64,000 bases of DNA from Desulfovibrionaceae bacterium. Its GTDB lineage: Bacteria > Desulfobacterota > Desulfovibrionia > Desulfovibrionales > Desulfovibrionaceae. The stretch is taken from assembly GCA_029008115.1 (NCBI GenBank), contig JAQXJC010000049.1, positions 91,818 through 155,817 of the forward strand, written 5' to 3'. Position 1 is the first letter of the stretch, and every line of letters begins with the position of its first letter. Of this stretch, positions 46,043-50,041 are shown one piece after another. A program made the position numbers and the translations under genes. The notes beneath the pieces were generated by a model. That model made no database searches and was not told the origin of the DNA. It saw nothing but the letters and a program-made list of their open reading frames with translations.

Positions 46043-47398
46043 ATGGCGCATACCGGCGCAGTCATTCTCGCGGCGGGGAAGGGAACCCGCATGCACTCCG
46101 ACAGGCCCAAGGTTCTGCAAACCCTGCTGGGCGAGTCCATGCTTTCCTATGTGCTGCGCGCTGTGGAGCCGCTGTGCGGCGATTCGGTATGGACTGTGGT
46201 CGGGCACGGTGCGCACATGGTCACGGCGGCCTTCCCGGCCGCGCGTTGCGTGCATCAGGCCGAACAGCTCGGAACCGGGCATGCCGTGATGCAGGCCCTG
46301 CCCGCCGTGCGGGAGGGGGGATGTCATCGCGTGCTGGTGGTCAATGGCGATACGCCGCTGGTCCGCACGGAGACGCTGCGCAGCTTCCTTGAGGCCGCTG
46401 GAGATGCGGATGTGGCCTTTGCCACCATTCATCTGGACGACCCCGGCGCCTATGGCCGGGTGGTGCGTGCTGGCGGCCTTGTGCGGGCCATCGTGGAGGC
46501 CAAGGACTATGATGCCGCTCTGCACGGCACGCCCACGGGAGAGGTCAATGCCGGCATCTATCTGCTGAAGCTGGACGTGCTGGAACGTCTTCTGCCGCAG
46601 CTGGGCTGCCAGAACAGAAGCGGGGAATATTACCTCACCGACGTGGTGGCCCTCGCCGTTGCCGAGGGGCTGAACGTGCTGGGCGTGGACTGCGGCCGGG
46701 ATGCCAGCCTGTTCGGCATCAACTCTCCGCTGGAGCTGGCCGCATCGGAAGAGCGTCTGCGCGCGGATATAGTGCGCGACCTGCTGCGCTCCGGCGTCAT
46801 GATTCATCATCCGGCCGGCGTGGTCGTCGGCCCCCGTGCCGTGGTTGAGCCCGGCGCGGAGCTGTGCGGCCCGTGCGAAATATACGGAGAAAGCCGCGTG
46901 GAGCGCGGGGCCCTGGTGCAGTCGCACTGCGTGCTGCGCAATGCCCGCGTTGCCGGCGGCGCTGAAATCCGCTCCTTCAGCCATCTGGAACAGGCGGAGG
47001 TGGCCGCGGGCGCCCTGGTCGGGCCGTATGCGCGGCTGCGCCCGGGGGCTGTGCTGGAAGAAGACAGCCATGTGGGCAATTTCGTGGAGCTGAAAAAGAC
47101 CCGTCTGGGGCGCGGCGCCAAGGCCAATCACCTGACCTATCTTGGCGATGCGCAGATTGGCGCCGGCACGAACATTGGCGCCGGCACCATCACCTGCAAT
47201 TATGACGGGAAGAACAAGTTTGCCACCATCATCGGGGAGCGCGCCTTCATTGGCAGCAATACCGCGCTGGTGGCTCCCGTTGCCGTGGGCGATGACGCGC
47301 TCATCGGCGCGGGATCGGTCATCACCCGCGACGTGCCGGAAGGGCAGATGGGCATCGCCCGCGCCCGCCAGACCGTGTTGCCGCGCCGCGTCCGGTGA
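46043..47398 (+). CDS. glmU: Bifunctional GlmU (GlcN-1-P acetyltransferase / GlcNAc-1-P uridyltransferase)
   Basis: Makes UDP-N-acetylglucosamine for peptidoglycan and LPS. The 451-residue protein has the uridyltransferase domain (VILAAGKGTRMHSDRPKVL, QLGTGHAVMQA, VVNGDTPLV, GEVNAGIY) and a C-terminal left-handed beta-helix with hexapeptide repeats, HLTYLGDAQIGAGTNIGAGTITCNYDG in pattern, ending RARQTVLP. AAGGAG lies about 6 bp before the ATG at 46043. Confidence 0.97.
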   Translation: MAHTGAVILAAGKGTRMHSDRPKVLQTLLGESMLSYVLRAVEPLCGDSVWTVVGHGAHMVTAAFPAARCVHQAEQLGTGHAVMQALPAVREGGCHRVLVVNGDTPLVRTETLRSFLEAAGDADVAFATIHLDDPGAYGRVVRAGGLVRAIVEAKDYDAALHGTPTGEVNAGIYLLKLDVLERLLPQLGCQNRSGEYYLTDVVALAVAEGLNVLGVDCGRDASLFGINSPLELAASEERLRADIVRDLLRSGVMIHHPAGVVVGPRAVVEPGAELCGPCEIYGESRVERGALVQSHCVLRNARVAGGAEIRSFSHLEQAEVAAGALVGPYARLRPGAVLEEDSHVGNFVELKKTRLGRGAKANHLTYLGDAQIGAGTNIGAGTITCNYDGKNKFATIIGERAFIGSNTALVAPVAVGDDALIGAGSVITRDVPEGQMGIARARQTVLPRRVR

Positions 47399-47427
47399 TG
47401 ATTGTGCTGTCCCCCCGCGGGGTGCCG

Positions 47428-47456
47428 CGCCGCATTGCCGGGCGGCGGACGCTTTT
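47428..47456 (+). terminator. Weak terminator after glmU
   Basis: CGCCGC (47428-47433) and GCGGCG (47442-47447) with TTTTT five bases later. The stem-to-U distance makes it a weak candidate. Confidence 0.35.
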
Positions 47457-47479
47457 TCAAATTTAGACTGGCAGATTTC

Positions 47480-47508
47480 TTGCTATTAAAAGAAGGCGGT
47501 GCTATATT
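47480..47508 (+). promoter_or_regulatory. Candidate promoter whose -10 touches the start codon of the coiled-coil gene
   Basis: TTGCTA and TATATT are 17 bp apart, and the -10 ends at the base before ATG 47509. A transcript from here would start near the second ATG (47515). Confidence 0.45.
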
Positions 47509-47760
47509 ATGGACATGGAACTCCTCGATCTTTTGGAAGACAGGATTGCGACGCTTATCACCGAACTGAATACGCTGCGTGAAACGCACAGGAACACGCT
47601 GGCGGAGCTGGATTCGGTCAGCGCGGCCCGTACTGCACTGGAAGAGGAAAACCGTGCGCTGAAAGAAACGCTGACGCAGGAAAAGGAAGTCAAGGAAACT
47701 GTCTCCCAGCGTATCGACAGGATGCTGTCTCAGCTGGACAGTATTGACGCTCCGAATTAA
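47509..47760 (+). CDS. ZapB-like coiled-coil protein
   Basis: An 83-residue protein that is almost wholly coiled coil: MELLDLLEDRIATLITELNTLRE to IDRMLSQLDS, with heptad leucines. It resembles ZapB, the partner of ZapA in the division-site complex, and is encoded directly before zapA, which supports that role. The start is ATG 47509 (with AGAAGGCGG about 11 bp upstream) or ATG 47515. The assignment is inferred from structure and context, as coiled coils carry little family signal. Confidence 0.75.
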   Translation: MDMELLDLLEDRIATLITELNTLRETHRNTLAELDSVSAARTALEEENRALKETLTQEKEVKETVSQRIDRMLSQLDSIDAPN

Positions 47761-47766
47761 TGATTG

Positions 47767-48039
47767 ATGAGTCAGGGTAGCTTTTCGCTGACCGTTCTGG
47801 GAATAGACATTCCCTTTCGTGCCGGCACGGATCGTGCCCGCATCGAGGCTGTCAAAAACCTGCTCGAAGAGCGGTTCGCAGCGCAAAAACAGAGGTCCCA
47901 CGGAGGGCAGAGCAAGGAAATTCTGCTCACCTTTATGGCCCTCGGACTCGCGGATGATTTGCTGCAGTTGCGCAAACAGCTGACCGGTGCGTGCGAGCGC
48001 ATTGACGTCATCAATGATAAATTGGAAAAAGTTCTTTAA
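47767..48039 (+). CDS. zapA: Cell division protein ZapA
   Basis: Binds and bundles FtsZ filaments. The 90-residue protein starts FSLTVLGIDIPFRAGTDRARIEAVKNLLEERF, typical of ZapA, and ends in a helix. The ATG at 47767 is 7 bp after the stop of the coiled-coil gene. The 6S RNA starts almost at once after its stop, an order known in many proteobacteria (zapA-ssrS). Confidence 0.92.
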   Translation: MSQGSFSLTVLGIDIPFRAGTDRARIEAVKNLLEERFAAQKQRSHGGQSKEILLTFMALGLADDLLQLRKQLTGACERIDVINDKLEKVL

Positions 48040-48042
48040 TTT

Positions 48043-48241
48043 TACCGTATTGCAGCCCTGGGACGTTTGAGCTTGAACCACGGGTGCTGACCTTACAAAC
48101 ATAAAAACGGACGCCGGTCACTGCCTTCGTGTGCATGCCCCCTGCGGGAAGCCTGACAGGGTATATGGGCGCCCCCCTGGGTAACCAGGTTCTGCACCCC
48201 TTGTTTCACACGGCGTCTTGGGGCCGCAATACGGTATTTTT
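48043..48241 (+). ncRNA. ssrS: 6S RNA
   Basis: About 195-nt RNA that binds the RNA polymerase holoenzyme and copies an open promoter. The ends form a long closing stem: TACCGTATTGC (48043-48053) with GCAATACGGTA (48226-48236), one A-C mismatch, then GCCCTGGGACGT (48055-48066) with GCGTCTTGGGGC (48213-48224, counting G-U pairs). Inside, a bubble (about 48067-48081 facing 48200-48212) is followed by the stem GGGTGC/GCACCC (48082-48087, 48194-48199), the 6S layout. TTTTT follows, so the closing stem also ends transcription. Its place right after zapA is the conserved one. A TTTAAT -10 at 48035-48040 could start it, though no good -35 was found. Confidence 0.85.
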
Positions 48242-48264
48242 CAGGCTTTTTGCTGAGCCATAGG

Positions 48265-48287
48265 AAAAGTCCCTCCCTGGGGCTTTT
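48265..48287. terminator. Second terminator after 6S RNA
   Basis: AAAAGTCCC (48265-48273) pairs with GGGGCTTTT (48279-48287) around TCCCT. A-run and T-run ends allow use in both directions. It isolates 6S RNA from rny. Confidence 0.65.
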
Positions 48288-48481
48288 CTTCGCCTCTGCT
48301 CCGATCTCCCGCTGGAACGTCCTGTTCCGTCCGTGCGGCTTTTCTGGTTGTCCTCCGGCAAATGAACGCTGCGATGCGGCGACGCTCTGCCGCGCCGGCA
48401 GTCCGGCGCCTGTTTTGTCGCCTGTCCCGCATCGATGCCTACCGGAGTCATCTCCGTTTTCGTATAAGGAGAATCCTGTTC

Positions 48482-50041
48482 ATGGATTTGCTGCACATCA
48501 TGTATATCGCCGTGGCCGTGGTGCTGGGCGCATGCGCGGGAGGGGCATTCTACCGCCATGTATCGGTCAAGCGCATCGGGGACGCGGAAGGGCTGGCCCG
48601 GCGCATTGTCGAGGAAGCCCGCAAGGAAGCCCAGGCGCAGAAGAAGGAAATCCTGCTTCAGGGACAGAACGATTTGTACAGCCAGAAGCGGGAGCTTGAG
48701 AATGAATACAAGGAGCGCGAGCGCGAAATGAAGGCCCGGGAGCGCAAGCTCTCCGAGAGTGGCGACCGCCTGGAAGAACGGCTGGAGAAAGTTTCGCAGA
48801 AAGAGCATGAAGTTCTGGCCGTGGAAAAGGAGCTCACCCGCAAGGAGCGCCAGCTGGCCGAATCGGAAGAGTTCCTGAATGCGCGCATCAGCGAGGAAGA
48901 GAAGAAGCTGGAAGAGATTGCGGGGCTGACCACGGAAGAAGCCCGGGAGCGCCTGCTTGCGGAGGTGGAGGCAAAGACCCGGCACGAAGCCGCACGCATG
49001 ATCCGGCAGATTGAGACGGAAGCTAAGGAGACAGGCGATCGCAAGGCCAAGGATATTCTGTGCAACGTCATCCAGCGCTATGCGGGCGATTACGTGGGCG
49101 AGCAGACGGTGACCGCCGTGTCCCTGCCCAGCGAGGATATGAAGGGCCGCATCATCGGGCGGGAAGGCCGCAACATCCGCGCCATAGAAGCCGCCACCGG
49201 TGTTGACCTGATTATCGACGATACGCCGGAAACTGTCATCCTTTCCGCATACAGCCCCCTGCGCCGTCAGGTTGCCAAAATGGCGCTGGAACGCCTGATT
49301 CAGGACGGGCGCATCCATCCGGCCCGCATCGAGGACATTGTGCAGAAGTGCGAGCAGGAGCTGGACGTGCAGGTGCGAGAAGTGGGCGAGCAGGCTACCT
49401 TCGACGCCGGCGTGCACGGCATCCATCCTGAAATCGTGCGCCTGCTGGGGCAGCTGCGCTACCGTACCTCCTTCACGCAGAACGTGCTTCAGCATTCGCT
49501 GGAGGTTTCCGCCCTGTGCGGCATGATGGCCGCGGAGCTGGGCATGGACGTGAAGAAGGCCAAGCGCGCCGGCCTGCTGCATGACATAGGCAAGGCCGTG
49601 GACCATGAAGTGGAAGGGCCGCACGCGCTCATTGGCGCGGACATTGCGAAAAAGTTCAACGAAGGCAAGGATATTGTCCACGCCATTGCCGCGCATCATG
49701 AGGATCAGCGTCCTTCCACGGCGCTGGCCGTGCTGGTGCAGGCGGCGGACTCCATTTCCGGCGCGCGCCCCGGCGCCCGCAAGGAACTGCTGGAGAACTA
49801 TGTGAAGCGGCTGGAAGAGCTGGAGGCCATTGCCACCAGCTTTGATGGCGTCTCCAAGGCCTACGCCATTCAGGCTGGTCGGGAAATCCGCGTGATGGTC
49901 AATCCCGAAAGCGTGGATGACGATGCCACCTATATGCTCTGCAAGGATATTGCCAAGAAGATTGAGGACAATCTGACCTATCCGGGGCAGATACGTGTGA
50001 CCGTGGTGCGCGAGCGCCGCGCGGTCGGCTTTGCCAAATAA
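48482..50041 (+). CDS. rny: Ribonuclease Y
   Basis: Membrane-tethered endoribonuclease that starts mRNA decay. The 519-residue protein has an N-terminal helix (residues 3-24), a long Glu/Lys/Arg coiled coil to about residue 200, a KH domain with [25 protein letters not shown], and an HD domain with [12 protein letters not shown] (HD at 367-368) and HHEDQRP. The frame is open upstream, but the family start is the ATG at 48482, with AAGGAG 10 bp upstream. Its stop overlaps the next start by one base. Confidence 0.96.

Follow-up and report, generated by a model that had tools for sequence, protein, structure and literature searches.

6S RNA (SsrS; Rfam family RF00013) is a well-known small RNA that damps bacterial transcription. 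It binds the housekeeping RNA polymerase holoenzyme as a mimic of an open promoter and is released by the synthesis of a product RNA, which in E. coli 6S starts at U44. A 6S RNA is also reported for Oleidesulfovibrio alaskensis G20 in a 2024 paper (PMC11124144). The locus described here lies at 48043-48241 on the forward strand of the 64-kb stretch of Desulfovibrionaceae DNA that we analysed (the window; all window features below are on this strand) and is almost certainly a single-copy 6S RNA gene. Using cmscan, RF00013 matches positions 48052-48228 over the full length of the model (1-187 of 187), scoring 70.4 bits where the cut-off is 46.4 (E 7.4e-12), and it is the sole Rfam match above cut-off within the window. 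A family-specific model, R1, built from 28 sequences that include the window 6S itself, gives this RNA 134.2 bits. Both the Rfam search and the R1 search find one copy in the genome concerned; no second copy appeared with Rfam, nor with R1 among the 150 of 915 first-look candidates that were scored. The window RNA shares with other members of RF00013 a full-length match, a closing stem, a central bubble, an apical stem and a single copy, and differs from them at its outer end, where some nine pairs and a T run reach past the model borders. It is an ordinary 6S RNA of an already known family with a small, genus-level elaboration of its stem, and it provides a genus little studied so far with a reliable annotation of one of its global regulators of transcription.

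The fold agrees with this assignment. The minimum free energy of 48043-48241 is -88.1 kcal/mol, compared with a mean of -68 for shuffled sequences (z -4.73), and none of 200 shuffles folds as well. The rod shape expected of 6S, with a closing stem, a large central bubble and an apical stem, is seen in the fold, in the Rfam alignment and in the consensus of the 28 sequences, with the interior of the single-sequence structure differing somewhat from the 6S model. An initial annotation, made from the letters alone, had described ends that pair over a long stretch with one mismatch, and the computed closing stem indeed begins with 11 outer pairs, which a single A.C mismatch (48054/48225) separates from a run of 15 consecutive opening brackets. 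The two arms of the outer extension, 48043-48053 and 48226-48236, are followed directly by a T5 run at 48237-48241, as had been noted; as a duplex on their own they amount to -15.6 kcal/mol, and an 11-pair run at equal spacing (register within 3 either way) occurs at 2 of 8,972 sampled window positions. The bubble and apical stem lie where the 6S model expects them, in line with the annotation; the central bubble has its 5′ strand at 48093-48108, and its 3′ side contains a small hairpin (CCTGG-GTAA-CCAGG, 48176-48189) of which three pairs appear in the 28-sequence consensus. The significant Rfam match that the annotation anticipated was obtained, but its borders enclose only the 6S core (48052-48228, also recognised by R1) and not the whole of 48043-48241. 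With the borders so placed, about nine outer pairs fall outside the family model, and they are a feature of the window's genus rather than of 6S RNA generally.

The 6S gene is situated between zapA and rny. Upstream lie zapB (47509-47760; PF06005, 33.7 bits, cut-off 31.5) and zapA (47764-48039; PF05164, 32.6 bits, cut-off 23.8), both without an NCBIfam match; zapA is the immediate neighbour, as the annotation had it, and downstream lies rny, encoding ribonuclease Y (48482-50041; TIGR03319, 756.5 bits, cut-off 454.35; also PF12072). In a scan of 47300-48600 the nearest promoter-like site 5′ of the 6S gene is at 47735-47764, with none in closer proximity. A search with the rny protein yielded 44 named loci, and 6S passes the cut-off just upstream of rny in all 35 of those designated L002-L036, which comprise Desulfovibrionaceae, one member of the Desulfohalobiaceae and one genome labelled just Deltaproteobacteria. 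This position is a supporting rather than a defining character of the gene, and for the zapA side the protein search in relatives covered one congener, G026. Across a wider family sample, 6S is matched at E <= 0.01 in 179 of 199 genomes, with 178 scoring above the Rfam cut-off, and closer inspection of some genomes without a match added two more (G034, G098). In an alignment of the window with 27 of the 35 named loci (the near relatives L004, L005, L008, L015, L018, L025, L027 and L036 being omitted), 21 of the 43 consensus pairs are altered at both partners in one sequence or more. Together with the Rfam score and the place 5′ of rny, these paired changes uphold the original 6S call.

The closing stem itself was measured at 104 loci of the family: G034, G098 and 102 genomes drawn from the 179 matched ones for genus spread and given positions (the remaining 77 lie outside the measurement), with the window and G026 among them. 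The measurement takes the end of the Rfam match as its anchor and can overlook a stem displaced from that point. Four of these loci, in two genera, carry an outward extension unequalled by any of 200 shuffles of the flanks, where chance alone would give about half a locus (104 loci, 200 shuffles each). The 6S of other Desulfovibrionaceae, for example of Desulfovibrio piger (L003, L036), occupies the same place just upstream of rny; so marked an extension is seen at these four of the 104 loci, the window's genus included. Within that genus the extension is present in both genomes that hold the locus, the window and G026 (which is L002, by score and sequence). The counterpart in G026 has 10 pairs and lacks the outermost one. 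The two genomes differ by one A-U to G-C double change, and the mismatch that is A.C in one is C.A in the other; the evidence from this genus amounts to two genomes and one double change. The window stem is followed by T5 and that of G026 by six T, the first of which is paired in the stem. The other two loci, G015 and G055 (L118 and L119), belong to another genus and have extensions of 11 and 9 pairs with a different sequence; these two differ from each other by one A-U to G-C double change, and neither is followed by a T run. These observations suggest that two genera of one family each acquired a longer outer end of 6S RNA separately. A near relative, G003 (L035; 82% DNA similarity over positions 41-181), carries T6 immediately behind its plain closing stem but no extension, which hints that the T run may predate the extension.

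Before the role of this extension is considered, two readings that would deprive the locus of a 6S function need to be weighed. That the element is no 6S at all, and is instead an inverted repeat that arose by chance or a terminator serving zapA alone, has in its favour its position directly 3′ of zapA; this reading is contradicted by the Rfam family match (E 7.4e-12) and by an interior that is conserved among relatives, and we give it practically no weight. That it is a decayed, non-functional copy is a little less far-fetched and still very improbable. Its 70.4 bits compare poorly with most relatives and with the 115.7 bits of the family's best, and it departs from the other 27 aligned sequences at 5 of the 60 columns in which these show 90% conservation or more. 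The remaining 55 are kept, however, as are 31 of the 32 columns identical among those 27; the fold is strong, much of the score deficit falls within the closing stem, a part that is different in the congener as well, and this is the only 6S in the genome.

Whether the closing stem also ends transcription, as the initial annotation proposed, is a more finely balanced matter. In favour, a stable stem ending at 48236 is followed directly by the T run, and this arrangement of stem and T run is shared by the two genomes of the genus in which the locus is present; against it, rival hairpins lie downstream, and the closing stem is not among the sites listed by a terminator scan of 47300-48600 with loops of 3-8 nt. 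The outer arms are separated by 172 nt (48054-48225) in place of a short loop, so we do not class the stem as an ordinary intrinsic terminator. Termination by the stem is nevertheless plausible, and that it stops a substantial share of transcripts is a proposal we hold tentatively, leaning very slightly against it. The stronger version, in which the closing stem in the window's genus was rebuilt as a self-terminator such that only transcripts with both ends paired are released as 6S, we regard as unlikely. Taken across the 104 loci, a run of at least five T lies no more than 14 nt from the plain closing stem at 11, in 8 genera. Starts of TTTTT past the plain stem number 18, 4, 6, 1, 0, 14, 7, 13, 10 and 8 in successive ten-base bins from offset 0-9, in counts that come from non-independent loci and register long runs more than once; given the later bins (14, 7, 13, 10, 8), the excess near the stem is local and not unique. 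No statement that a 6S closing stem serves as a terminator was met in passages of PMC11124144, PMC8414754 and PMC4064990, and one may exist in print. If the stem does terminate, it would offer a simple case of coupling between folding and release.

The main competitor holds that the 6S transcript is read on to one of the hairpins further downstream, or into rny, and that its 3′ end is then trimmed back, the extension acting only as a protective clamp; in our judgement the arguments for and against this are evenly matched. Three structures could serve as the stop. The closest is a hairpin of 12 pairs whose 3′ arm is rich in T (48262-48290; 48262-48273 paired with 48279-48290), which begins 26 nt after the stem and of which the inner part, 48269-48283, precedes TTTTCTTC at -7.0 kcal/mol; like the closing stem, it is absent from the terminator scan of 47300-48600. 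The second (48309-48338) precedes TTTTCTGG at -10.8 kcal/mol, and G026 has a hairpin before TTTTGTCC (TTTT) at much the same distance, 89 nt past the end of the 6S model compared with 80 nt in the window. These hairpins (48269-48283, 48309-48338 and that of G026) come from a scan run without a control, and hairpins are frequent in G+C-rich DNA, which weakens their support for read-through. The third, a 7-pair G+C hairpin before CTGTTTTGTC (48392-48409), lies between 6S and rny and was listed by the terminator scan, which gave 4 terminator-like sites where 1.3 were expected. The extended stems of G015 and G055 are further points for trimming, since in the absence of a T run their extension is not tied to termination. 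Against read-through and trimming, the T run falls exactly at the end of the extension in both congeners.

Setting termination by the closing stem beside protection of its end, we arrive at the following model for the window 6S. By analogy with E. coli, the RNA would imitate an open promoter and so be bound by the housekeeping RNA polymerase holoenzyme, with the bubble at 48093-48108 placed in the active site; synthesis of a short product RNA on the 5′ side of the bubble would then set it free. By the same analogy to U44, this product would probably start opposite U48093 or U48094 and read toward the 5′ end of the RNA. The outer extension would then be located beyond the copied part of 6S, which fits a role in setting or protecting the end better than one in altering polymerase binding. 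In the window's genus the closing stem has been lengthened by about 11 pairs and finishes at the T run, and the likeliest role of the added pairs is to set and protect the 3′ end of the RNA. Some transcripts may be stopped by them at 48237-48241, the possible release site, with the hairpins further 3′ as back-up, and they may also block exonucleases.

The distribution of 6S also bears on how far the gene is needed. The third genome of the window's genus, G059, is 76% complete and is uninformative in this respect, since 6S, zapA and rny all lack a match there. In another genus, g22, 6S is absent from six genomes (G107, G141, G079, G057, G150 and G119; L173-L178) that are 97-99% complete: none gives an Rfam match at E <= 1, R1 finds none among the 150 of 437-517 candidates scored per genome, and R1 likewise finds none in their rny loci at E <= 10. 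All six retain rny. Lineage-specific loss of 6S RNA is likely in these genomes, and the absence of 6S but presence of rny in six near-complete genomes points to a gene that is dispensable in some lineages. The spacer upstream of rny in the six shares, by eye, a stretch GTCGGGGCTT. Three other genomes of g22 (G021, G095 and G131) keep 6S upstream of rny. Among the other named loci, a scan covering L037-L041, with L042-L045 outside it, found no 6S. As a separate observation, two Moorella genomes have a cobalamin riboswitch some 2.8 kb 3′ of rny (L038:7318-7491 and L039:7317-7490).
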